The notes beneath the pieces are model-generated. The model saw nothing but the letters and a program-made list of their open reading frames with translations. It had not been told where the DNA came from and searched no databases. From NCBI RefSeq assembly GCF_025148285.1, contig NZ_CP102268.1, positions 3,203,001-3,267,000 on the forward strand: a stretch of DNA of 64,000 nt. Reading direction: 5' to 3'. A program made the position numbers and the translations under genes. The stretch's first letter is position 1, and each line of letters starts with the position of its first letter. This document shows positions 6,810 through 21,073 of this stretch, one piece after another. The stretch is from Marvinbryantia formatexigens DSM 14469. GTDB lineage: Bacteria; Bacillota; Clostridia; Lachnospirales; Lachnospiraceae.

Positions 6810-7713
6810 CCTGTATGGTAAAAAGCGGGAGGGTACCCCCGGCGCGGCAGGAGGCGCTGATGCTGCCGCCCATGTGCTCCGTCAGACTTTTGCTGATGGT
6901 GAGACCGAGACCGGTGCCGCCGCGGCTGCGCGACTGCTCCTGCATATAGAAGCGGTCGAAGAGGCGGGTGGGGTCGGAGGGCGCCTGTTCCGGCAGGATA
7001 TCGTTTTCAAAAAGAAAGCAGACGCTGCCGCCCGCCGGATTTTCCTGCACGCGCACAAAGATATGGCTTTGTGCGTAGCGCAGGGCGTTCTGCAGCAGGT
7101 TGACAAAGATGCGCTTCAGCGCATCTGCATCCCCGTGAATGCATATTTCGTGCGCGGGAAGCTGGCAGTTTATCTCCAGATGCGCTGCTTCAAACTGCGC
7201 ATAATGCTCCAGACAGGTTTCACGCAGAATCCGCGCCGCGTCCACGGATTCTTTTTTGACGGAAAAATCCTGTGAGGTGACGCGCGAAAGCTCGTAAAAC
7301 TGTGCAATCAGCGTCTGCAGCGATTCAGCTCTGCGGATGGCGGTCTCCAGATATCCGGCGTCTGCCGTATCCAGGGAATCTTTATTTATCAGCTTCAGAT
7401 AGCCGAGCACGGCTGTCAGCGGCGTGCGCAAATCGTGGCTGATGTTCTCAATCTGCTCCTTCAGGAGCTTTTCCTGTTTTTGATAGGTGATGTGCTCCTG
7501 CCGGATGGCGGTGAGATTTTCATTGATTACCTGCAGAAGCTCCTCCAGAGAAGCTTCATGAACGGGCAGCTTTACGATGCGGTTTTCTGGAAGAGCATCG
7601 TTTATTTCCCGCAGAGCGGCGGTGGTCTGGCGGATGGATTTTTGCAGCAGGAAGAAACGGTATGCAAAATACACTGCCGCCAGAATAAATAAAATAAGTA
7701 AAATTGTCTGCAT
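6757..7713 (-). CDS. sensor histidine kinase (antimicrobial-peptide type)
   Basis: A 318-residue membrane kinase with one N-terminal membrane helix (about residues 4-22), no obvious extracellular sensor domain, a coiled linker and a DHp domain with ISHDLRTPL (His93). The CA domain has NLLQNALRY (N box), LFDRFYM (F box) and GGTGLGL (G box). Small-sensor kinases of this sort often listen to a neighbouring ABC exporter. Start 7713 is chosen over 7731 because GGGAGG precedes it at good spacing. It is the last gene of a leftward set: response regulator, ATPase, permease, kinase. A repeat-containing gap of about 200 bases separates it from the permease. Confidence 0.88.
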   Translation of the reverse strand: MQTILLILFILAAVYFAYRFFLLQKSIRQTTAALREINDALPENRIVKLPVHEASLEELLQVINENLTAIRQEHITYQKQEKLLKEQIENISHDLRTPLTAVLGYLKLINKDSLDTADAGYLETAIRRAESLQTLIAQFYELSRVTSQDFSVKKESVDAARILRETCLEHYAQFEAAHLEINCQLPAHEICIHGDADALKRIFVNLLQNALRYAQSHIFVRVQENPAGGSVCFLFENDILPEQAPSDPTRLFDRFYMQEQSRSRGGTGLGLTISKSLTEHMGGSISASCRAGGTLPLFTIQVMFPVPETSSVPGCAAP

Positions 7714-7729
7714 AAAAGTTCCTCCCTTC

Positions 7730-7831
7730 AAAGCCAGTCGTCCGCGGCAGAGTGAAAGTGTGTAAAGCCAGCCGTCCGCGGCAGGGCGTCAGCAGATAGA
7801 GCCCCCACGATGGATAGAGCCCGCCACGATG
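7730..7831. repeat. two families of short direct repeats between permease and kinase genes
   Basis: A 21-base unit AAAGCCAGYCGTCCGCGGCAG occurs at 7730-7750 and 7764-7784. It is followed by an 18-base unit GATAGAGCCCSCCACGATG repeated from 7795 and 7813. The repeats are not coding. Confidence 0.7.
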
Positions 7832-7881
7832 GATGCGGCGGCCGCGCATTGTCCGGCGGAGCGCCAGCGCTTAAGTCGCCG

Positions 7882-7916
7882 TGCATACGACAAATGCGCC
7901 AGGCGGACGTTTTTTG
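7882..7916 (+). repeat. TGCATACGAC hairpin repeat, copy A
   Basis: TGCATACGACAAA followed by an imperfect hairpin and GGACGTTTTTTG. A closer palindrome with the same head and tail occurs at 59090-59123. The T-run on the plus strand makes it terminator-like in an orientation opposite to the surrounding genes. Confidence 0.5.
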
Positions 7917-7917
7917 C

Positions 7918-8691
7918 TTACAGCTCCAGGCGGCGCAGGCGAAGCACGCCCCAGATAAGAAAGATAACACAGCCGATAACGCCGGCGGCGATGCAGTGCA
8001 GCATCCCTCCTGCGGTATCCCAGATACTGTTGTAGGTGTTCATGGATACGACTACGTCCATGCGCAGGAAGTTGTACGGCATCCATTCTGCGATACGCGC
8101 AAAGAGCGCAGATTTCAGACCGATAAGAAAGCACGCCATCGGAATGCCGTAGAAGAGCAGGACCCACCAGAGCATGCCGGTTATTTCTTTGCGGCAGAGC
8201 ATGAATATGACATTCGCAAAAATCAGAGAGGCAACGGCGCTCGGCAGGGAGGCGGCGATAGCAAGCAGCATCTGCTGCACCGGCAGCCACTCCGGCTCCC
8301 GCAGGGTGAGAAAAGCACATGCAACATAAAATATAAAAACGACGAGAAGCAGGAGCAGGGCGGTCAGCAGGCTGACGATACACTTGCCAATCAAAATGCT
8401 TTCGCGGGAAATGCCGTAAGCGACGGTCGTTTTCAGAACGCCGGATTTCCGGTCTTCATTAAAGAGCACGCCCGCCACAGCGGCGCCGAGAATTACCATA
8501 ATAAACGGCTGCGCCACAAAGTTATTTAGGGAAAAGCGCACGGTGTTATAAGCAAAATCCGGGGTGAGCGCAGCGCCGATAATTAAGGCAATATGCGTAA
8601 GCAATACAATTCCACAGAGGACTGCGCCGAAGATATAAAGGGAGCGGCTGTGCAGGATACGGTAAATTTCACTTCTTATATAGTTTAGCAT
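7918..8691 (-). CDS. ABC-2 type permease
   Basis: A 257-residue integral membrane protein with six predicted helices: about 17-40, 62-80, 100-125, 135-160, 168-190 and 225-250. The order and the N-terminal MLNYIRSEIYRILHSRS match ABC-2 permeases of bacitracin/lantibiotic-type exporters (BcrB/NukE-like). It overlaps the upstream ATPase gene by seven bases, so both subunits are co-translated. The exported or sensed compound is unknown; resistance to, or detection of, a peptide antibiotic is the usual role of this arrangement. Confidence 0.82.
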   Translation of the reverse strand: MLNYIRSEIYRILHSRSLYIFGAVLCGIVLLTHIALIIGAALTPDFAYNTVRFSLNNFVAQPFIMVILGAAVAGVLFNEDRKSGVLKTTVAYGISRESILIGKCIVSLLTALLLLLVVFIFYVACAFLTLREPEWLPVQQMLLAIAASLPSAVASLIFANVIFMLCRKEITGMLWWVLLFYGIPMACFLIGLKSALFARIAEWMPYNFLRMDVVVSMNTYNSIWDTAGGMLHCIAAGVIGCVIFLIWGVLRLRRLEL

Positions 8692-9611
8692 GTTTTTGTA
8701 CCCCCGTTTTTCAGATTCATGTAATATTCTTCCAGCGACTGGTGACAGCGCATAAGGCTGTGCACTGCAAGGTGTGCGTCAACTGCCAGGGCGCTGTAGG
8801 CTTCCGTCGGGCGGTCCGCCTGTAATATGTGAATTTTCCCCTCCGGCAGAATCTGATAGTGCGTATGTCCGAATTTCTGCTCCAGAAGAACGGCGTAGAC
8901 CTGCGCGTCCGACACCTGGATTTCCACATAATCAGCGCATTTTTTATAAAGCGCTTCTGCGGAAATCTCCTCCAGCAGCTTCCCTCTCTGCAGAAATCCG
9001 AAAATGGTAGCAATCTGCTCCAGCTCGCTTAAAATGTGGCTGGATAATAAAATGGTGATGTTTTTCTCGCGGTTCAGCTTCAGAAGGAGGTTGCGCATTT
9101 CCAGAATCCCGCTGGGATCCAGTCCGTTGATGGGCTCATCGAGCAGCAGAAATTCGGGCACGCCGAGCAGGGCGACGGCAAGACCGAGGCGCTGCTTCAT
9201 GCCAAAGGAGAGCTCCCGGCAGGATTTCTTACGGAATTCAGACAGACCGGTCATCTCCAGCGCCTCCTCCAGAGGCTGTTTTCCGGGGATACCCTTCTGC
9301 AGACGGTAATATTCCAGATTCTGCTCGACGGTGAGCGTCGGATAAAAACCGGCCTCCTCAATCAGCACGCCGATACGGGAGCGCGCGCTTTGCAAATCCT
9401 TCTGTGTGTGCTTTCCGAACAGGGACAGCTCCCCGGCAGTCGGAAAAATCTGTCCCGAAAGAAGCTTCAGAAAGGTTGTTTTGCCGGCGCCGTTGTCGCC
9501 GACCAGACCGTAGATTTCCCCGCGTTTTATGGAAATAGACACTTTATCCAGCGCGCAGAAATTATGGTAATACTTTGTGAGTTCACAGGACCTTGCAGTA
9601 TAAGTTTCCAT
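8685..9611 (-). CDS. ABC transporter ATP-binding protein (BcrA-like)
   Basis: A 308-residue ATPase. Walker A GDNGAGKTT (residues 38-46), signature LSFGMKQRLG (about 132), Walker B FLLLDEP (about 152) and the switch His in LLSSHILSE are all present. The C-terminal 90 residues form the extension usual in BcrA/antibiotic exporters. It partners the ABC-2 permease that overlaps its 3' end. A gap of 156 bases follows the response regulator gene, with a separate -10-like ATTATA (9707-9712 on the plus strand), so it may have its own regulated promoter. Confidence 0.88.
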   Translation of the reverse strand: METYTARSCELTKYYHNFCALDKVSISIKRGEIYGLVGDNGAGKTTFLKLLSGQIFPTAGELSLFGKHTQKDLQSARSRIGVLIEEAGFYPTLTVEQNLEYYRLQKGIPGKQPLEEALEMTGLSEFRKKSCRELSFGMKQRLGLAVALLGVPEFLLLDEPINGLDPSGILEMRNLLLKLNREKNITILLSSHILSELEQIATIFGFLQRGKLLEEISAEALYKKCADYVEIQVSDAQVYAVLLEQKFGHTHYQILPEGKIHILQADRPTEAYSALAVDAHLAVHSLMRCHQSLEEYYMNLKNGGTKTC

Positions 9612-9706
9612 AGCTTTCTTAATTCCTTTCTCTATCAGTCGGCCGTTTGCAAAGCAGGGCTGCTTATGCCGGTAAAGCTTTTGCTTAACGGTCCGTTATG
9701 GATTGT

Positions 9707-9735
9707 ATTATAAAATCTGCACTTTAAATAAGTCC
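9707..9735 (-). promoter_or_regulatory. possible promoter for the ABC exporter genes
   Basis: A perfect minus-strand TATAAT (plus-strand 9707-9712) lies about 95 bases upstream of the ATPase start and lacks a recognisable -35 box. That fits a promoter that needs an activator such as the adjacent OmpR-type regulator. Confidence 0.4.
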
Positions 9736-9767
9736 TCAGGAAAGTTTAAAGAAATCATAAAGATTGC

Positions 9768-10457
9768 CTACGCCATTTTAAAACCAATGCCCCAGACTGT
9801 TTTTATGTATTCATTGTCTGCGTCGCAGGCGGCAATTTTTTTGCGCAGGTTGCTCACATGGACATTCACGGTGTTGTCCTCGCCGTAGTAGCCTCCCTGC
9901 CAGACGCGTTCATAGAGCGTCTCGCGGGAGAAGACCTTCTCAAGTTCCCGCGCAAGAAGCAGCAGGATGTCATATTCGTGGGGCGTGAGCACAAGCTCCT
10001 GCCCGTTTACCGTCGCTCTGCGCGCGGCGGGGCAGATGCACAGCTTTTTATAAGAAATGTCATCTGCGGCAGGCTTTGCCGCGGGCATTCTCTGCGCTCT
10101 GCGCAGGCAGGCGGTAATGCGCGCCAGCAGCTCCTCCGGCTCGAAGGGCTTTGTCATATAATCGTCCGCGCCGCCGGTCAGAAGCTGCACCTTGTCCGCC
10201 AGGGATGATTTTGCGGAGAGCACCAGAACCGGGATATCCGGCTGCTTTTCTGCGCGTATTCTTTTCAGCAGCTCCTCGCCGGTCATACCCGGCAGCATCA
10301 GATCAAGAATTATCATATCAAAGCTTTCCAGCTCCAGCCGCAGGAGAGCCTCCGTGCCCGAAAATGCCTGCGCTGTCTGCAGCCCGTTTTTTTCGCAGAT
10401 ACTGCGTATCAGATGATTAATGTCCGCGTCGTCCTCGGAAATCAGAATTTTTGCCAT
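9768..10457 (-). CDS. OmpR-family response regulator
   Basis: A 229-residue regulator. The receiver domain has acidic pocket SEDD (8-11), phospho-acceptor Asp52 in IILDLMLPG and Lys in MTKPFEPEE. The C-terminal winged helix has the OmpR features LTPHEYDILLLL and DNTVNVHVSNLRKKI. Start 10457 is supported by AGGAG eight bases upstream, rather than the ATG at 10526. It is the first gene of the leftward regulator-exporter-kinase set and probably controls the exporter genes. Confidence 0.92.
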   Translation of the reverse strand: MAKILISEDDADINHLIRSICEKNGLQTAQAFSGTEALLRLELESFDMIILDLMLPGMTGEELLKRIRAEKQPDIPVLVLSAKSSLADKVQLLTGGADDYMTKPFEPEELLARITACLRRAQRMPAAKPAADDISYKKLCICPAARRATVNGQELVLTPHEYDILLLLARELEKVFSRETLYERVWQGGYYGEDNTVNVHVSNLRKKIAACDADNEYIKTVWGIGFKMA

Positions 10458-10868
10458 ATGTTTTTCTCCTGTCTTTATCTGGTCTGATAAGGGAAACCGG
10501 GACCTGAAGCACCGGACCCATGTCATAGAATAGCATATCCGGGGCGGATGCGCTACTGGATTCCTGTGTTTTTCGCCGGGAGGCAGCCGCCTGATTCCTG
10601 TTCAGGCGTAAGCTATGCAGGCGGCAGACCGCCAGCTAAAGCAGGCTATCCGCTGCTGCCATATCTCCTGTCTGTGGCAGAACGGTGGAAGAAATGACGG
10701 CGTTTCTGAAAAAAACATAAATTTATTGTATAATATAACGAAAAAATCTTAAAAATTTCAATGTAAAAAGAAAAATATTCTATGTTTTTTCCGGAACAAC
10801 ATCGTGTATAATGTCGATATCAACAAACGGCACGGACAGAGGTCCGGTCAGAAGGGAGAATTTCAAGT
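10458..10868 (+). promoter_or_regulatory. mgl promoter region
   Basis: This 411-base gap between divergent genes holds two perfect TATAAT boxes (10729-10734 and 10807-10812), the second 57 bases before the mglB start with only a T-rich -35 region. Small hairpins lie at 10588-10608 (CGCCTGA/TCAGGCG) and 10833-10846 (CGGAC/GTCCG, in the probable leader). GAAGGGAGAA precedes the ATG. No clear operator was recognised. Confidence 0.5.
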
Positions 10869-12104
10869 ATGAAAAAGAGAATTTTTGCACTGACAATGGC
10901 AGCAGTTATGGGTCTTTCCATGACAGCATTTGCTGAGGGCGAGGTGGCTAACAAAGATAAGCCGCTTGTATGGTTCAACCGTCAGCCGTCCAACAGCTCC
11001 ACAGGTGAGCTTGATATGGCGGCTCTGAGCTTCAACGAGAATACCTATTATGTAGGATTTGACGCAAACCAGGGCGCAGAGCTTCAGGGAACAATGGTAA
11101 AGGATTATATCGAGGCACATGCAGATACGATCGACCGCAATGGCGACGGCGTAATCGGTTACGTTCTGGCAATCGGCGATATCGGACACAATGATTCCAT
11201 CGCACGTACAAGAGGTGTTCGTAAAGCTCTTGGCACAGGCGTTGACAAAGACGGCGACATCAACAGCGATCCGGCAGGTACAAATACCGACGGTTCCGCA
11301 AGCGTGGTACAGGACGGCACACTGGAAATCAACGGCACGACCTACGTGGTACGTGAGCTGGCTTCCCAGGAAATGAAGAACTCCGCAGGTGCTACATGGG
11401 ATGCAGCTACCGCAGGAAACGCAATCGGTACATGGTCCGCTTCCTTCGGCGATCAGATTGATATCGTTGTTTCCAATAACGATGGTATGGGCATGGCAAT
11501 GTTCAATGCATGGTCCAAAGACCAGGGCGTGGCAACCTTCGGCTACGATGCAAACAGCGACGCAGTAGCAGCTATCGCAGAGGGCTACGGCGGAACCATC
11601 AGCCAGCACGCAGATGTACAGGCTTACCTCACACTTCGTGTTCTGCGCAACGCACTGGACGGCGTAGATATCGACACCGGTATCGGCACAGCAGATGATG
11701 CAGGCAACGTTCTGACAGACGATGTATATGTATACAATGAAGAGCAGCGCTCCTACTACGCATTGAACGTAGCAGTTACCGCTGACAACTACGAAGATTA
11801 TCTGGATGCTACCGTAACCTACGCTCCGGTATCCAACCAGCTTGATGAGAGCGCACATGCAACGAAGTCTGTATGGCTGAACATCTACAACGCAGCAGAT
11901 AACTTCCTCAGCGCTACCTACCAGCCGCTCCTTCAGAAGTATGATGACCTTCTGAATCTGAATGTGGAATACATCGGCGGCGACGGACAGACAGAGTCCA
12001 ACATCACAAACCGTCTCGGAAATCCGAGCCAGTATGATGCATTCGCAATCAACATGGTTAAGACAGACAACGCAGCTTCCTATACATCTCTGCTTAGTCA
12101 GTAA
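10869..12104 (+). CDS. mglB: galactose/glucose-binding protein, circularly permuted
   Basis: A secreted binding protein of 411 residues with signal peptide 1-22 (AFA|EGE; no lipobox Cys). Compared from memory with E. coli MglB, the order is rotated. Residues 28-312 match the part from strand VVFFNKEPS to the normal C-terminus; residues 335-411 match the normal N-terminus (IYNAADNF for IYKYDDNF; FAINMVKTDNA for LAINLVDPAAA). The known sugar ligands are found as N37, H107, D109, R113, W177, N204, D227, D344 and F346; only N256 is changed (Q246). The Ca-site loop DRNGDGVIG (89-97) is kept in part. It is the first gene of mglBAC and is followed by a hairpin. The cut point is where E. coli has ARGQ|NVPVV. 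Confidence 0.88.
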   Translation: MKKRIFALTMAAVMGLSMTAFAEGEVANKDKPLVWFNRQPSNSSTGELDMAALSFNENTYYVGFDANQGAELQGTMVKDYIEAHADTIDRNGDGVIGYVLAIGDIGHNDSIARTRGVRKALGTGVDKDGDINSDPAGTNTDGSASVVQDGTLEINGTTYVVRELASQEMKNSAGATWDAATAGNAIGTWSASFGDQIDIVVSNNDGMGMAMFNAWSKDQGVATFGYDANSDAVAAIAEGYGGTISQHADVQAYLTLRVLRNALDGVDIDTGIGTADDAGNVLTDDVYVYNEEQRSYYALNVAVTADNYEDYLDATVTYAPVSNQLDESAHATKSVWLNIYNAADNFLSATYQPLLQKYDDLLNLNVEYIGGDGQTESNITNRLGNPSQYDAFAINMVKTDNAASYTSLLSQ

Positions 12105-13725: not shown

Positions 13726-15381
13726 ATGGCAAATGGAAATGGAAAAATTCTGACGGCAGAGCAGGAGAAAAAGCTGCTTGCGCCCATTGAAGAATATGTC
13801 GGCAAGATTCAGAAAAAAATAGATGCGCTCAGAGCAGATGGCACCGATAAGGTCATCGCTGCCCAGAGCAGTATCGATGCAATTAAGAGAGACCGCACGA
13901 TGCCGGCCTCCGAGAAAGAAGCCGCGATTGCAAAGCTCCGCAGCGAGATGGAAAAGGCAAAGAGCGTAGAGGCGGCAAACAAAAATGAAGTCTCCAGGCT
14001 GATTGCCGATGCGGAAAACTATCTGAAGGCGCATTTTGATAAAGAGTATTATCAGCCGGTGAAGGAGAGCTGCGAGCAGGAAAAGGCGCTTGCCAAGACC
14101 GCCTATGAGGAAAAGGTGGCGAAATTAAAGGCGGAGCACCAGACGACGGTAGCGAAGCTGTCCAACAGCCAGGAAATCAAGGATGAGAAATATGTACATA
14201 AAAACCGTCTGTTTGACGCAAAAATGAGTCTGGAGAAGGATCTGCAGACGATTAAGGACCGCAGACACGCAGCTTACAGCTACAAGTATCATCTGATCGA
14301 CCTTCTGCGGATGTCGAAGTTCACCTTTGCGGAGACGCAGGCGCAGAAATGGGAAAACTACAAATATACCTTTAACCGCAGGGCATTCCTCCTGCAGAAC
14401 GGTCTGTACATTGCAATCGTGATTATTTTCATTGCGCTGTGTATCATTACGCCGATTGTCAAGCACACACCGCTGCTGACATACAATAACGTACTGAATA
14501 TTCTGCAGCAGGCATCGCCGCGAATGTTCCTTGCGCTCGGCGTAGCCGGACTGATCCTTCTTGCAGGTACCGACCTTTCCATCGGACGTATGGTAGGTAT
14601 GGGTATGACGACGGCGACGATTATCATGCATCAGGGCGTCAACACCGGTTCCGTATTCGGACATGTGTTTGACTTTACCGGAATCCCGGTGGTGGGGAGA
14701 GTCTTCCTCGGACTGCTTGCCTGCGTGGTTCTGTGTACGTTCTTCACAACGATTGCGGGCTTCTTCACGGCGAAGTTCAAGATGCATCCGTTTATTTCCA
14801 CGATGGCGAACATGCTGGTAATTTTTGGTCTTGTAACCTATGCGACAAAGGGTGTATCCTTCGGTGCGATTGAATCCTCGATTCCGAGCATGATTATCCC
14901 GAAGATTAACGGCTTCCCCACCATCATTCTCTGGGCGGTGGCAGCGGTCATTATCGTATGGTTTATCTGGAACAAGACAACGTTTGGTAAGAATCTGTAC
15001 GCGGTCGGCGGAAACGCTGAGGCGGCGGCAGTTTCCGGTATCTCGGTATTCAAGGTAACCGTTGGCGCATTCGTTATGGCAGGTATCCTTTATGGTTTCG
15101 GTTCCTGGCTGGAATGTGCGAGAATGTTCGGTTCCGGTTCCGCAGCTTACGGGCAGGGCTGGGAAATGGACGCTATCGCAGCCTGCGTAGTAGGCGGCGT
15201 ATCCTTCACCGGTGGTATCGGTAAGATTTCGGGCGTAGTAGTCGGTGTATTCATCTTCACCGCACTTACCTACTCCCTTACCATCCTCGGTATCGACACA
15301 AACCTGCAGTTCGTGTTCTCCGGTATCATCATTCTGGTGGCGGTAACACTCGACTGTCTGAAATATGTGCAGAAAAAATAA
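13726..15381 (+). CDS. mglC: galactose ABC permease MglC with long N-terminal coiled coil
   Basis: A 551-residue permease. Residues from about 226 onward form the usual membrane domain, with helices starting at GLYIAIVIIFIALCIITPIV, the family motif LAGTDLSIGRMVGMG and a C-terminal FSGIIILVAVTLD. Known MglC proteins are about 330 residues. Residues 1-222 form a charged, nearly all-helical extension rich in Lys, Glu and Ala with heptad-like spacing, likely a cytoplasmic coiled coil. Its role is unknown; binding to the ATPase or to a regulator is possible. The start follows GAGGGAG. It is the last gene of mglBAC, ended by a strong terminator. Confidence 0.9.
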   Translation: MANGNGKILTAEQEKKLLAPIEEYVGKIQKKIDALRADGTDKVIAAQSSIDAIKRDRTMPASEKEAAIAKLRSEMEKAKSVEAANKNEVSRLIADAENYLKAHFDKEYYQPVKESCEQEKALAKTAYEEKVAKLKAEHQTTVAKLSNSQEIKDEKYVHKNRLFDAKMSLEKDLQTIKDRRHAAYSYKYHLIDLLRMSKFTFAETQAQKWENYKYTFNRRAFLLQNGLYIAIVIIFIALCIITPIVKHTPLLTYNNVLNILQQASPRMFLALGVAGLILLAGTDLSIGRMVGMGMTTATIIMHQGVNTGSVFGHVFDFTGIPVVGRVFLGLLACVVLCTFFTTIAGFFTAKFKMHPFISTMANMLVIFGLVTYATKGVSFGAIESSIPSMIIPKINGFPTIILWAVAAVIIVWFIWNKTTFGKNLYAVGGNAEAAAVSGISVFKVTVGAFVMAGILYGFGSWLECARMFGSGSAAYGQGWEMDAIAACVVGGVSFTGGIGKISGVVVGVFIFTALTYSLTILGIDTNLQFVFSGIIILVAVTLDCLKYVQKK

Positions 15382-15631: not shown

Positions 15632-16621
15632 ATGGCAAATATTGATGATGTTGCAAAAAAAGCAGGAGTATCCAAAAGCACGGTATCACGCGTGCTGCTG
15701 GGGGGAAACAAGGTAAAACCTTCTACAAAAGAACGTGTATTAAAAGTAATAGAGGAAATGAACTATAGTCCGAATACTGCAGCACGTACACTGGCGGCGG
15801 GAAAAAGTCATAATATTGGAGTAATCAGCAGCTATACATTGAATGACCCGTTTTACTCGGCGGCAGGCGAGGAGATTTATCATGTATGTGGAGAAATGGG
15901 CTATAGTACGCTGTTTGTCATTAATCGTACAGATAAGAATGAGCATAAAGACCCGATTGCACTTCTGCACGGAAAGGTAGATGGATTTTTGTTCATGGGA
16001 GATAATTCTGTGACAAAGGAGCAGCTGGAAAAGCTGACAAAAATGGAACTTCCGACTGCGGTATTTAAAACGGGAGAATGGATTCCCGGAATTATTCAGG
16101 CAGATACAGATAATATAGATGGAGCATGCAGAGGAACAGAATATTTAATTCGTCTGGGACATAGAAGAATAGCGATTCTTACGGGAAAGGAAAATTATTA
16201 TGAGAGCATCGACCGAATGAAGGGGTATCAGAAAGCGTTGGAAGAAAATCATATCCGGTTTGAATCTGAACTGGTCTTTCCAGGTCAATTCTCCTATGAT
16301 AAGGCGAGAAATCTGGCAAAAGAAATTATTGCATCAAGAGCGACGGCTGTCTTTTGTTTTAATGATGTAATGGCACATGGTTTTATTCAGGGAGCAGGAG
16401 AGTGTGGATACCGGGTTCCGGAGGATATTTCTGTTCTGGGGTATGATAATATTATGTTCAGCAATTATGACTCTTATGTGCATTTATCAACGGTAAAACA
16501 GCCGATAAAGGAGATGAGTGCCTATCTTGTCAGAGCTCTGATTGCCCAGATTGAAGATGGACAGCCGCCTGTTCAGAAAATTTTTCCGACGAAAATTTCA
16601 GAAAAAGAAACTACGCGATAA
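15632..16621 (+). CDS. LacI-family transcriptional regulator
   Basis: A 329-residue repressor. Residues 2-55 form the LacI-type DNA-binding domain (IDDVAKKAGVSKSTVSRVL, hinge PNTAARTL). The rest is a periplasmic-binding-protein-like effector domain with GVISSYTLNDPFYS, FCFNDVMAHG and VLGYDN. A perfect 24-base palindrome downstream is its probable operator, so it likely represses the adjoining sugar transporter and GH43 genes until an inducer sugar binds. The inducer is probably an arabinose- or xylose-containing oligosaccharide, inferred from GH43. The surrounding DNA is more AT-rich than the flanking mgl and GNAT-maf regions. Confidence 0.93.
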   Translation: MANIDDVAKKAGVSKSTVSRVLLGGNKVKPSTKERVLKVIEEMNYSPNTAARTLAAGKSHNIGVISSYTLNDPFYSAAGEEIYHVCGEMGYSTLFVINRTDKNEHKDPIALLHGKVDGFLFMGDNSVTKEQLEKLTKMELPTAVFKTGEWIPGIIQADTDNIDGACRGTEYLIRLGHRRIAILTGKENYYESIDRMKGYQKALEENHIRFESELVFPGQFSYDKARNLAKEIIASRATAVFCFNDVMAHGFIQGAGECGYRVPEDISVLGYDNIMFSNYDSYVHLSTVKQPIKEMSAYLVRALIAQIEDGQPPVQKIFPTKISEKETTR

Positions 16622-16639
16622 GCGTATGTTTTTTTACCT

Positions 16640-16663
16640 AAAAATGGTAGCGCTACCATTTTT
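16640..16663. promoter_or_regulatory. LacI-type operator (24-base perfect palindrome)
   Basis: Half-site AAAAATGGTAGC and its exact complement meet at a central CG, as LacI-family operators do. It sits 19 bases after the regulator gene and 45 before the binding-protein ATG. Possible -10 boxes TATAAA at 16673 and 16684 follow at once, so occupancy would block the promoter. Confidence 0.8.
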
Positions 16664-16708
16664 GGGGAAACATATAAACAAACTATAAAGTAGAAAAGGA
16701 GTAGAAGA

Positions 16709-17989
16709 ATGAAGAAGAAAATTTGTGTACAAATGGCAGTGATGATGGCAGCAGGAAGTCTTATATCGGTTCCGGTACTGGCGGAAGAAAGTACAGATAC
16801 ATCGTCTTTAGAAGGAACGTTGACAATCTGGTCATGGACAGACGACCCTGTTTATCAAATTGAGGCTTTTGAAAAAGCATATCCGAATGTAAAGGTAGAA
16901 TTTACACAGATTGGACAGGATTATGATGTAAAAATGCAGACGGTAGTGGAAAATGAAGCAGATGGACCGGATGTTTTTTGCGCGGATGTTAAAACTCTGA
17001 AAAATTATATCGAGGCGGATGCATGGGAAAACTTAAGTGCGGAACCCTATAATGCAGAAGAAACAGTGGGAGAACTGATTGACTATACGAAAGAAGTGGC
17101 ATCCGACGCAGAAGGAAATTTACGCGCGGTAAGCTGGCAGGCGACACCGGGTGGGTTCTGGTATAAAAGAAGCCTTGCAAAAGAATATCTGGGAACGGAT
17201 GACCCGGAGGATATTTCTTCCATGCTCTCTACTATGGACGGCTTTTTGGAGACAGCACAAAAAGTTTATGATGCAAGTGATGGAAAGACAGCCTTTATTC
17301 CGAAGTATGATGATATCTGGACATTTGCATGCTACAGTGAGCGTGAAACGCCGTGGGTAGTGGATGGAGTTTTTCAGATGGATTCTTATGTAGATACTTA
17401 TTTCGATATTTGCAAACAGGTTCGTGACAATGGATATGATGCAAAGCTGGATGCATGGTCAACGGCATGGTATGCGGCAGCGGCGGATGATTCGTTGTTT
17501 GGATATGTATTGCCAACATGGGGTATGCAGTATGTGATTCAGGGGAGTGCTCCGGATTCTAAGGGAGACTGGGCGATTGCTTCCATGCCGAATTCCTACT
17601 TTAATGGCGGGACTTATATGGGTATATACAAAAAAAGTGAGAATAAGGAACTTGCATGGGAATATCTGAAATTTGTTACGACAGATGAGGATTATCTGAA
17701 ACAGTATATCGCGGATAAGTCTGATTTTCCGGCTTCGACAAAAGTGGTTGATGAGGTAGTAGCTGATTATGCTGATGAATGGTGTGCGGGTCAGAATACG
17801 TTCAGCTTTTTTAAAGAGGAGGCAGAAAAAATAGACGTTTCTCTTGTAACAAAATATGATGACACCATCAATAATCTTCTGAATCAGAATGTGGAATTAT
17901 ATGTGCAGGGAGAACTGGATAAGGACGAAGCAATTTCGCAATTTAAAGAAGACGTTGCAACGGCATATCAGAGTATTCTTGTAGAATAA
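16709..17989 (+). CDS. extracellular sugar-binding protein (family 1)
   Basis: A 426-residue binding protein of a CUT1 sugar importer. A signal peptide covers about residues 1-25, ending VLA|EES; the only early Cys (C6) is in the charged region, so there is no lipobox. The mature part starts LTIWSWTDDPVYQIEAFEK, typical of family 1 binding proteins, and carries many aromatic residues (WSTAWYAAA, PTWGMQY) suited to stacking on sugars. The two permease genes follow. The ATPase subunit is absent, so a shared MsmX/MalK-type ATPase elsewhere is expected. Confidence 0.9.
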   Translation: MKKKICVQMAVMMAAGSLISVPVLAEESTDTSSLEGTLTIWSWTDDPVYQIEAFEKAYPNVKVEFTQIGQDYDVKMQTVVENEADGPDVFCADVKTLKNYIEADAWENLSAEPYNAEETVGELIDYTKEVASDAEGNLRAVSWQATPGGFWYKRSLAKEYLGTDDPEDISSMLSTMDGFLETAQKVYDASDGKTAFIPKYDDIWTFACYSERETPWVVDGVFQMDSYVDTYFDICKQVRDNGYDAKLDAWSTAWYAAAADDSLFGYVLPTWGMQYVIQGSAPDSKGDWAIASMPNSYFNGGTYMGIYKKSENKELAWEYLKFVTTDEDYLKQYIADKSDFPASTKVVDEVVADYADEWCAGQNTFSFFKEEAEKIDVSLVTKYDDTINNLLNQNVELYVQGELDKDEAISQFKEDVATAYQSILVE

Positions 17990-18005
17990 GCAGGGTCTGT
18001 AAAAT

Positions 18006-18032
18006 GGGGCGGGCGGTGTCCGCCCCTGTTTT
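18006..18032 (+). terminator. hairpin after the binding-protein gene
   Basis: GGGGCGG / CCGCCCC (18006-18012 / 18020-18026) followed by TGTTTT, between the binding protein and permease genes. It is likely a partial terminator that sets subunit ratios. Confidence 0.65.
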
Positions 18033-18062
18033 CAACCATAAGAGAAAGGAAGGGGAATGTCC

Positions 18063-18944
18063 ATGAAACAAAAAAGAGCCAGATGCGGATACTTGTTTGT
18101 AACGCCATATCTGATTGTATTTCTGGTGTTTCAGTTGTATCCGATTTTATATACATTCGGATTGAGTCTGACAACAGACTATGATAAATCGTTTGCAGGA
18201 TTGGCGAACTATGAGCATTTGCTAAAAGACAAGGTTTTTTGGAAGAGTGTAATAAATACCTGGAAAATATGGCTTGGCTGTATTGTTCCGCAAATGATTT
18301 CGGCACTGATTCTGTCGGTTCTTTTATGCCAGTATCGTTTAAAAGGGCAAAACGTATTCCGGGCATTGTTTTATCTGCCGAATCTGGTGACAGCAGCTTC
18401 GATTGGTATTTTATTTGGCGTATTGCTTGATTGGCAGACTGGTACAGTTAATAAAATATTGCTGCAGTTAAACCTGATTGAAGAACCGGTAAACTGGATG
18501 GGAAGTCCTTCCTTTGCGCAGGGTATTACTTCCGCGATACAGTGGTGGATGTGGTTTGGACACAGTACGATTCTGCTGACTGCCGGTATAAAAGCCATTC
18601 CAAATGAGGTGATTGAATCTGCCGTGGTAGATGGAGCAGGAAGCGTACAGCGTTTTTTTAGAATTACATTGCCAATGATACGACCAACACTGCTGTATGT
18701 GGTGATTACTTCTTTGATTGGCGGCATGCAGATATTTGATATTCCAATGGCACTTACCGGAGGCGATGGGGAACCGCAGAAATCGCTGATGACGATGGTG
18801 TTATATTTGTATAATTCTGCGTTTAAAAATAAAAATTATGCATATGGAGCGACGGTCTCTTATGGGCTGTTTGCAATAATTCTTATATTTTCTGTACTGT
18901 TTTTCCGTGTATTGAATCCTAAGGAAGAAGGTGAGAATGGATGA
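18063..18944 (+). CDS. CUT1 sugar ABC permease (MalF/UgpA type)
   Basis: A 293-residue permease with six helices; the first is YLFVTPYLIVFLVFQLYPIL. The ATPase-contacting EAA loop is seen in VIESAVVDGAGSVQRFFRITLPMIRP (E-A-A as E-S-A, with conserved Gly and P). Start 18063 is favoured over the ATG at 18057 because AAGGAAGGGG is correctly spaced only from the second. It pairs with the next permease, overlapping it by four bases. Confidence 0.9.
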   Translation: MKQKRARCGYLFVTPYLIVFLVFQLYPILYTFGLSLTTDYDKSFAGLANYEHLLKDKVFWKSVINTWKIWLGCIVPQMISALILSVLLCQYRLKGQNVFRALFYLPNLVTAASIGILFGVLLDWQTGTVNKILLQLNLIEEPVNWMGSPSFAQGITSAIQWWMWFGHSTILLTAGIKAIPNEVIESAVVDGAGSVQRFFRITLPMIRPTLLYVVITSLIGGMQIFDIPMALTGGDGEPQKSLMTMVLYLYNSAFKNKNYAYGATVSYGLFAIILIFSVLFFRVLNPKEEGENG

Positions 18945-19765
18945 AAAGAAAATCAATATCAAGAGTTCTGATTTATCTTCTGTTGATTTTACTGACTATT
19001 ATTTGTTTTTTGCCATTTTATATTATGATTATCAATGCAACGCATAGTACAAACGAACTTATGACAGGGCTATATCTGCTTCCTGGTGACAGTCTGATTG
19101 AAAACTATCATAATATGACGAATATGATTGATATTGGCCGGGGATTTTTAAATAGTATAATTATAACTGTTAGCAGTACCGTTTTAAGTGGGTATTTTGG
19201 AGCATTGACAGCCTTTGGGCTTACGAAATATGAATTTAGGGGAAGAAATATTATTTTTGCGATTATCATGATGTCAATGATGATTCCGTCCCAGCTTGGA
19301 ATTATTGGATTTTTCCGTCTGTGCAAATATATGGGAATACTGGATACCTTTTTCCCTCTGATTCTGCCATCTATTGCAAATGCAAGTACAGTATTTTTTA
19401 TTATGCAGTATATTCGCTCCTCGCTTCCGGATTCATTACTGGAATGTGCAAGGATGGAAGGCTGCGGGGAATTTCTGATATTTAACAGAATTGTAATTCC
19501 GCTTATTAAACCAGCGATAGCGACAATGTCTATTTTTAATTTTGTAGCATCATGGAATAATTTTATGGTACCAATGATTGTATTGTTTAGTCAGAAAAAT
19601 TTTACTTTGCCGCTTCTGATTATGAATTTACGTGGTTCTTTTAACAGAGATTATGGTGCTACATATACAGCGCTGGCAATTTCGATTGTCCCCATTATGA
19701 TTGTATATGCCTTTATGTCAAAGCATATTACGGAAGGGGTAACGGCAGGAGCCGTAAAAGGATAA
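18941..19765 (+). CDS. CUT1 sugar ABC permease (MalG/UgpE type)
   Basis: A 274-residue partner permease with six helices. The EAA loop appears as LLECARMEGCGEFLIFNRIVIPLIKP and the C-terminus AVKG matches the family ending (GAVKG). The ATGA overlap with the upstream permease indicates translational coupling. Together with the binding protein it should import an oligosaccharide later split by the GH43 enzyme encoded next. Confidence 0.9.
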   Translation: MKRKSISRVLIYLLLILLTIICFLPFYIMIINATHSTNELMTGLYLLPGDSLIENYHNMTNMIDIGRGFLNSIIITVSSTVLSGYFGALTAFGLTKYEFRGRNIIFAIIMMSMMIPSQLGIIGFFRLCKYMGILDTFFPLILPSIANASTVFFIMQYIRSSLPDSLLECARMEGCGEFLIFNRIVIPLIKPAIATMSIFNFVASWNNFMVPMIVLFSQKNFTLPLLIMNLRGSFNRDYGATYTALAISIVPIMIVYAFMSKHITEGVTAGAVKG

Positions 19766-19825
19766 AACATTGTCAAAGATGAAGTGGACAGTATTATAAA
19801 TGAGATTGAGGGAGGAAGCTTACAA

Positions 19826-21073
19826 GTGAATCCGATATTACCGAAAAAATATTATATTCCTGATGTTGAAGCACGTCAGTGGAACAATGGAAGAATGTAT
19901 TTATATGGGTCAAATGACTGGCCGGGAGAGAGGTACTATTGCAGTGATATTTATCGGGTATTTTCTTCAGATGATTTATGCGTCTGGAGAAATGAGGGAA
20001 TTTCTTTTACAGGCAGGGAAGAAGGAGAAAACCATGCGGCGGAACCAGGTATTCTGTATGCACCGGACTGTATGTACATAGATGGTAAATATTATCTGTT
20101 TTATTGTCAGTCAAAGGGGGAGGAAGGAATTGCTGTCAGTGATTATCCGCAAGGACCATTTTGCGGGGCAAAACCAATTAAATATGCAGACCGAACACAG
20201 ATAGACCCGGCAGTATTTGTAGATGACGATGGAACAGTATATTATTATTGGGGTCAGGTATCGGCAAAAGCAGGGATTCTGGATATTGAAAAGAGAGCGA
20301 TAAAAAAAGAAACAATTATTGATGGAATTCTTACAGAAAAAGAGCATGGTTTCCATGAAGGAATTTCTATGAGGAAGAGAAACGGAATATATTATCTGGT
20401 ATACACAGATATTTCCAGAGGAAGAGCAACGAGTATCGGATATGCCACCAGCCTTTCACCGCTTGGTCCTTTCAAAAAACAGGGAATTATTATTGATAAT
20501 ACGGGATGTGACCCTGGAAGCTGGAATAATCATGGTTCTATCGCAGAATTCCGCGGACAGTGGTATGTGTTTTATCATCGCTCTACACATAATAGTGAAT
20601 TTAGCAGACGCGTGTGCGTGGAGCCGATTTATTTTGATGAAAATGGGCTGATAAGAGAGGTGGAAATGACAACGCAGGGAATTCATGGTCCGATTAAAGC
20701 GTCTGTCTGCATGGATGCAGCGAATGCGTGTCTGCTGCATGGAGGAATTTATATTGATTCAGATGGCAAAGAGGAGACCTTTTATGAATATCTGGGGCAT
20801 ATAAAGTCCGGTGACTGGGCGGCATATAAATACCTGCAGTTTGATGGACGGGAAACGGCGTTGGTTATACGATGCCGGAAGGGAAAAAACTGTAAGGTTT
20901 TTGTGAGATTAGATAATCCGGAAGGACAGTTGATAGCGCAGGGGAATCTCCGAACAGGAAAAAATTGTATGAAGCTGATAAAACAAGTATCTGGTCGACA
21001 TGCATTGTATTTGTGTTTTGACGGTACAGAAGAAGATTTACAGATTGTAGATTTACAGTTTGCAGTAGGTTAA
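19826..21073 (+). CDS. GH43 glycosidase with C-terminal CBM6-like domain
   Basis: A 415-residue cytoplasmic enzyme, probably an arabinofuranosidase or beta-xylosidase. The five-bladed propeller carries Asp13 (IPDVEA, general base), Asp127 (QIDPAVFVDDDG, pKa modulator) and Glu178 (FHEGISM, general acid). Residues about 290-415 resemble a family 6 carbohydrate-binding module (GDWAAYKYLQFDG). I choose GTG at 19826 because GGAGGAAG lies eight bases before it; an upstream GTG at 19784 lacks such a site. There is no signal peptide, so it acts on imported oligosaccharides. It is the last gene of the LacI-controlled cluster. Confidence 0.85.
   Translation: MNPILPKKYYIPDVEARQWNNGRMYLYGSNDWPGERYYCSDIYRVFSSDDLCVWRNEGISFTGREEGENHAAEPGILYAPDCMYIDGKYYLFYCQSKGEEGIAVSDYPQGPFCGAKPIKYADRTQIDPAVFVDDDGTVYYYWGQVSAKAGILDIEKRAIKKETIIDGILTEKEHGFHEGISMRKRNGIYYLVYTDISRGRATSIGYATSLSPLGPFKKQGIIIDNTGCDPGSWNNHGSIAEFRGQWYVFYHRSTHNSEFSRRVCVEPIYFDENGLIREVEMTTQGIHGPIKASVCMDAANACLLHGGIYIDSDGKEETFYEYLGHIKSGDWAAYKYLQFDGRETALVIRCRKGKNCKVFVRLDNPEGQLIAQGNLRTGKNCMKLIKQVSGRHALYLCFDGTEEDLQIVDLQFAVG

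Follow-up and report, generated by a model that had tools for sequence, protein, structure and literature searches.

A circularly permuted MglB-type sugar-binding protein and the extended permease of its operon in Marvinbryantia formatexigens DSM 14469

A 64,000-nucleotide stretch of the Marvinbryantia formatexigens DSM 14469 genome (hereafter the window; C1:3203001-3267000 of a single contig of 4,577,574 bases) encodes, at positions 10869-12104, a protein that resembles the glucose/galactose-binding protein MglB but appears to carry its parts in another order. This raises the question of whether the chain is circularly permuted, as an earlier note on this DNA had proposed, and, if so, in what setting the permuted protein works. 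We confirmed the permutation. Behind the signal peptide, the chain starts at a strand from the middle of MglB and continues to the C-terminus of that protein; its last segment is a homologue of the N-terminal part of MglB.

A phmmer search of solved structures placed three entries of TpMglB-2 from Treponema pallidum (5jx2, 6bgd, and 6bgc) at the top, with expectation values (E) of 4.3e-89 to 4.1e-87, and the match was colinear, residues 28-409 of the query lying on residues 19-385 of the chain. The match to canonical MglBs of known structure was confined to two internal pieces. The segments were further compared with hhalign, in which 33 aligned permuted proteins (alignment A1) were set against 20 canonical MglBs from other clostridia. 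Residues 29-328 matched the canonical C-terminal part with 99.8% probability and the N-terminal part with 0.1%, whereas residues 330-411 matched the N-terminal part with 84.8% (score 32.9, P 6.5e-6, 69 columns) and the C-terminal part with 0.1%. This crosswise pairing is the pattern expected of a permutation, and the canonical chain order was not found in the protein. Against the whole canonical MglB, residues 330-411 were again placed at its N-terminus (47.5%, P 1.9e-4), and none of 100 column shuffles of this segment reached the score of 32.9, the best being 21.0. The Pfam assignments showed PF18610 (Peripla_BP_7) at residues 332-402 and PF13407 at residues 57-265, the latter covering only positions 94-256 of the 258 in the profile. 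The same chain start and chain end occurred in 94 rows (duplicates included), and 33 permuted proteins aligned over their full length. The shared order that the earlier note had sought in homologues is thus present, and the misassembly that it had named as a possible refutation is excluded by these same sequences. The chance that the order is an artefact of assembly or annotation is negligible, because it recurs in many independent assemblies and in crystal structures.

The topology is not new, since a protein of the same kind, TpMglB-2 (Tp0684), was crystallised and published by Brautigam et al. in 2016 together with gram-positive gut homologues (PMC4990184), and we rejected novelty on the strength of the TpMglB-2 match and that publication. 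There the topology is named Type Ic or Cluster Bc, and the permuted clade includes mainly gram-positive members, many of them from the gut (PMC4990184, Fig. 4); the window protein likewise comes from a gut bacterium. The window protein is a further member of this TpMglB-2-like class. It shares with TpMglB-2 the permuted order over almost all of the mature chain, with identity of about 40%, residues at all ten sugar contacts, a calcium-loop sequence that looks similar by eye, and permease homologues of similar distribution. The 2016 publication notes such a distribution for homologues of the tp0686 permease, and also possible horizontal sharing (PMC4990184). The window protein differs in its greater length, by about 15 residues, in the part that aligns (382 versus 367), in having an aspartate, D344, where TpMglB-2 has N311, and in lacking the lipobox of the treponemal lipoprotein. 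With E. coli MglB (GGBP; 2GBP and 2FVY), it shares the fold of both lobes, the contact residues, and the type of transporter; the chain order differs, and the contact N256 is replaced by glutamine. PF18610, which is Pfam's family for the moved segment, occurred in 32 of the 299 genomes sampled from the family and in 2 of the 398 sampled across the phylum, the genome studied here being in both counts, and in none of 14 control genomes.

The AlphaFold model of the protein (mean predicted local distance difference test score, pLDDT, 80.3; predicted template modelling score, pTM, 0.81) agreed with this assignment. It superposed on chain 6bgc_B with Z 40.4 and 2.5 Å over 358 aligned residues, model residues 24-411 lying on chain residues 6-375. 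On E. coli 2GBP, 228 residues were aligned (Z 17.1, 4.2 Å), and only model residues 23-316 were covered, on chain residues 53-309. For TpMglB-2, a superposition after rotation has been reported with 276 residues at 2.2 Å. Four TpMglB-2 chains came first in Foldseek (E 1.6e-34 to 1.4e-32), and the next match had an E of 9.5e-10. The linker between the two homologous segments, a putative fourth hinge cross-over, was seen in both the model and the profiles; in TpMglB-2, it is established that the rotation keeps the fold intact and adds a cross-over between the lobes (PMC4990184).

Several observations weigh against the permutation. The signal of the relocated segment as a single sequence is weak: the best domain reached 9.1 bits among the 64 proteins scored, and some canonical MglBs scored no higher than unrelated proteins. 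The identity of this segment has been reported as 13% (PMC4990184). The MglB equivalog NF011924 gave 86.5 bits against a cut-off of 420, a shortfall expected for a permuted chain. The five AlphaFold models ranged from 59.5 to 80.3, and the best one contains weak ten-residue blocks in regions of importance, at 171-180 (58), 231-240 (54), 341-350 (64), 371-380 (61), and 401-410 (65). The permutation rests on TpMglB-2 as an intermediary and on the segment profiles.

These weak single-sequence scores, together with the great length of the stem below the permuted proteins in a tree (4.48 changes per column), would also fit a different history, in which only part of the protein is MglB and the C-terminal ~80 residues came from an unrelated gene, resembling the N-lobe by convergence; acquisition from another gene was raised as a possibility by the 2016 authors (PMC4990184). 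We consider this unlikely, because the segment's profile scores above all 100 shuffles against the canonical N-terminal profile with 69 columns in register, because canonical MglBs, aligned by their N-termini, take all of the first ten places among the 64 proteins, above the genome's other binding proteins, and because D344 and F346 stand at the positions of E. coli D14 and F16. The stem was estimated in a tree of protein cores that addressed a possible origin from the neighbouring canonical paralogue and was built by a quick method (58 rows, 24 of them permuted and none from a spirochaete, the canonical row of L274 being left out; support by the Shimodaira–Hasegawa-like approximate likelihood ratio test, SH-aLRT, only). 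The 24 permuted rows form one side of a branch with a support of 100, and the length of the stem means that the sister of the permuted clade cannot be told. For the permuted MglB, the tandem duplication followed by trimming that the earlier note proposed is a plausible origin; a duplicated intermediate was not seen in the loci read, among which no search aimed at one was made.

The sugar-binding site is complete by sequence. Mapping through the phmmer alignment to TpMglB-2 onto Table 2 of PMC4990184 gave ten contact positions: N37, H107, D109, R113, W177, N204, D227, Q246, D344, and F346. The nine contacts that the earlier note had listed were correct and are identical to those of E. coli; the tenth is Q246, in place of E. 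coli N256 and equivalent to Q215 of TpMglB-2. All ten are invariant in the 33 rows of A1, including the two supplied by the relocated segment, and the inference of a working site drawn in the earlier note agrees with this conservation. TpMglB-2 binds D-glucose with closure, and changing its N19, D195, or F313, which correspond to N37, D227, and F346 of the window protein, abolished the observable heat of glucose binding, while W145A, at the position of W177, raised the dissociation constant from 1.1 to 12.7 μM (PMC4990184).

Genes of the mglA and mglC types directly follow the permuted mglB (Table 1). With its chain order, fold match, site conservation, and operon established by computation, the gene very probably specifies a binding protein of the permuted TpMglB-2-like class that serves a glucose/galactose ATP-binding cassette (ABC) importer (mglBAC); we infer the identity of the sugar and the role in uptake. 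According to this model, the chain would begin inside the N-lobe, build the C-lobe, cross back through the extra linker, and finish on strands one to three of the N-lobe. The folded protein would be a flytrap of the usual two-lobed kind, its sugar site unchanged in type and both of its termini in the N-lobe. As in other binding proteins of type I, the lobes would close on glucose or galactose captured outside the membrane, and the protein in its closed state would deliver the sugar to MglC in a process driven by MglA.

Table 1. Features of the permuted mglB operon and of the canonical mglB locus (window positions unless preceded by a locus name; aa, amino acid residues)
Feature	Position	Strand	Remarks
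mglB open reading frame, circularly permuted glucose/galactose-binding protein (putative sugar)	10869..12104	+	ATG start, 411 aa
Signal peptide of the signal peptidase I type, residues ~1-22, without a cysteine and hence without a lipobox	10869..10934	+	Cleavage site read by eye
Segment corresponding to canonical MglB from ~residue 85 to the C-terminus; aa 29-~311	10953..11801	+	Contacts N37, H107, D109, R113, W177, N204, D227, Q246
Linker, ~aa 312-330	11802..11858	+	Placed by its position between the two homologous segments
Relocated segment (aa 330-411), counterpart of the N-terminus of canonical MglB	11856..12101	+	PF18610 at 332-402; contacts D344, F346
Strands of the relocated segment: 333-338, 364-369, 391-395	within 11856..12101	+	AlphaFold model
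mglA-type ATPase, 502 aa	12199..13707	+	Directly after mglB
mglC-type permease, 551 aa, with N-terminal extension	13726..15381	+	After mglA
MglC N-terminal extension, aa 1-215, predicted helical, probably cytoplasmic	13726..14370	+	Occurs with permuted MglB
Canonical-order MglB with lipobox	L085:5148-6194	-	Beside the three frames below
Neighbouring frames: LacI-like binding protein, YesM-like kinase, YesN-like regulator	L085:6277-7383, 7238-9139, 9088-10809

The closest named relatives of the permuted MglB, among the best 80 of 467 relatives covered by the search, belong to the Lachnospiraceae, with 97% identity to Lachnospiraceae bacterium UBA7225. An antisense open frame of 331 residues runs through mglB (10863-11858, minus strand) and was taken as an effect of composition. 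Beside the operon, positions 15632-21073 encode a regulator of the LacI type, another sugar ABC system (a binding protein without a lipobox and two permeases), and a protein that by eye resembles glycoside hydrolase family 43. A literature search on the side findings, with narrow terms and limited coverage, found no publication, which does not establish absence from print.

The permease carries an N-terminal extension that accompanies the permuted binding protein. Residues 1-215 of the window MglC were matched in all 33 genomes with PF18610 (the 32 of the family sample and G069 of the phylum sample) and in none of 37 others, of which 23 had been searched for PF18610 and lacked it and 14 had been picked solely for their canonical MglB. 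Three of the 33 matches were partial and came from fragmented assemblies (G398, G600, and G640). All six canonical mglBAC regions sampled from other clostridia encode an ordinary permease (open frames of 335-372 residues) that aligns to the window MglC only from residue 217 or later. The joint occurrence of the permuted MglB and the extended permease amounts to co-inheritance, both genes being part of one operon. AlphaFold predicted the extension as long helices at residues 11-198, with pLDDT mostly 81-92 by block; the model of the whole MglC was poor (mean pLDDT 55.9, pTM 0.38), and only residues ~11-190 were well modelled. The first hydrophobic segment of MglC is at residues 218-252, with none earlier. 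Permeases of this kind generally have a cytoplasmic N-terminus. The extension is probably cytoplasmic, as it is predicted to form long helices and precedes the first hydrophobic segment, and it would then be out of reach of a secreted binding protein. For this reason, docking of the permuted MglB on the MglC extension, the partner suggested for the moved termini in the earlier note, was rejected as stated. One could guess that the extension contacts MglA or a regulator on the cytoplasmic side. Comparison of MglC with Protein Data Bank chains gave no match at E ≤ 0.01, Pfam gave only weak matches to the extension below the cut-off (E 0.028 or worse), and the literature matches listed for Tp0686/MglC held nothing on a permease extension.

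The genome also encodes an MglB in canonical order, P0002 (348 residues; C1:1040150-1041193, minus strand), which carries a lipobox and lies beside a LacI-like binding protein and, as read by eye, a YesM-like histidine kinase and a YesN-like response regulator. Of the 33 genomes with PF18610, 25 gave a match to P0002 at E ≤ 1e-25. Among 20 regions fetched from these 25, 16 showed the gene order permuted mglB, mglA, extended mglC, regulator, kinase, LacI-like binding protein, canonical mglB; in three, the kinase and the canonical mglB were on the other side of the permuted operon; and in the last (G689), the sensory genes were ~24 kb from it. In the remaining five genomes, the two were 2.17 Mb apart (G000) or on different contigs (G412, G598, G600, and G644). 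The other eight of the 33, some of them incomplete assemblies, gave no P0002 match, indicating that the permuted operon can stand without the canonical paralogue. Among clostridia picked for their canonical MglB, this protein is usually encoded right next to mglA, a matching mglA frame having been seen in 22 of 30 short loci. As a separate observation, the permuted proteins are very much alike across genera, with a lowest pairwise identity of 71.6%; for the canonical paralogues that share clusters with them, the identity to P0002 is 41-67%.

The permuted protein might serve mainly as a sensor or chemoreceptor ligand instead of in uptake, given that E. coli MglB has both roles and that a role in chemotaxis was proposed for TpMglB-2 (PMC4990184). 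This seems very unlikely, because the permuted mglB lies directly upstream of mglA and mglC, and because a separate canonical MglB and a histidine kinase are found on one stretch with the permuted operon in 19 of the 20 regions (16 downstream and three on the other side), the twentieth holding the sensory genes alone. The arrangement suggests that the canonical MglB may be used for sensing and the permuted MglB for uptake.

The permuted topology was suggested in 2016 to be an adaptation to tethering, a membrane tether being called a probable commonality of the class and not its definition (PMC4990184). The signal peptide of the window protein contains no cysteine and gives no sign of such a tether, suggesting that the protein is secreted without a lipid anchor. 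We found the permuted chain by pattern in 104 of the loci L001-L114, corresponding to 92 distinct proteins; L002 and L085 are not permuted loci, seven of the other eight were read by eye and all have a lipobox, and L114 was not recovered. In L044 and L107, no start codon fitted the signal-peptide rule. A lipobox is present in 82 of the 92 distinct proteins, and the ten without one include the window protein and those of Parablautia, two Candidatus Limivivens, and Murimonas. In a tree of the 92 permuted cores, the ten rows require five changes, of which the well-supported branches force only one; with the bootstrap unsettled, one loss of the lipobox cannot be distinguished from several.

The absence follows the habit of the genome. 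The signal peptides of its binding proteins were read by eye (window 10869-12104 and 16709-17989; loci L145-L183, L190, L196, and L198-L203). For SBP_bac_1, 30 loci of the 45 matches were read and 29 had a signal peptide, 28 ending like signal peptidase I sites (three of these have an internal cysteine that passes a loose pattern) and one having a lipobox. The 24 matches to PF13407 comprise ten binding proteins with a signal peptide above the family cut-off, seven without a lipobox and three with one (including the canonical MglB), two matches below the cut-off, one of each kind, and 12 regulators or membrane-anchored proteins. All five PF00497 proteins lack a lipobox, and one of these frames holds a stop. 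Elsewhere, 29 loci of ten genomes were read. All 17 binding proteins carried a lipobox in six genomes whose permuted MglB has one, seven of nine lacked it in three genomes whose permuted MglB lacks one, and three of three lacked it in G518, of the same genus and without PF18610. Lgt was found in all six genomes tested and LspA in five of six, both being present in the genome studied here, indicating that the lipoprotein pathway remains. The persistence of the permutation where the tether seems to have been lost bears on the tethering suggestion (PMC4990184); an ancestral role in tethering is not refuted, because most relatives are tethered.

These observations lead us to a tentative proposal, which we think may well prove wrong: the permuted MglB and the extended MglC would form a distinct uptake importer of single origin, the canonical MglB would serve sensing through the YesM/YesN-like system, and the moved termini may insulate the paralogues, each docking only on its own partner. 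Anchoring would then not be what keeps the permutation, since it persists in proteins without a lipid anchor. If this proposal is true, two paralogues sharing a compartment and a sugar are kept apart by changed surfaces.

The permuted binding protein confirms the published class in another gut bacterium, and the profiles supply evidence, at the level of sequence, for descent of the moved segment from the N-terminus of MglB, where an origin in another gene had been left open in 2016 (PMC4990184). What this analysis adds beyond the class is the tight pairing with an extended permease, the adjoining canonical paralogue with a two-component system, and the absence of the lipobox. The canonical paralogue lying side by side with the permuted protein makes the reason for permuting a binding protein a testable question of partner choice.
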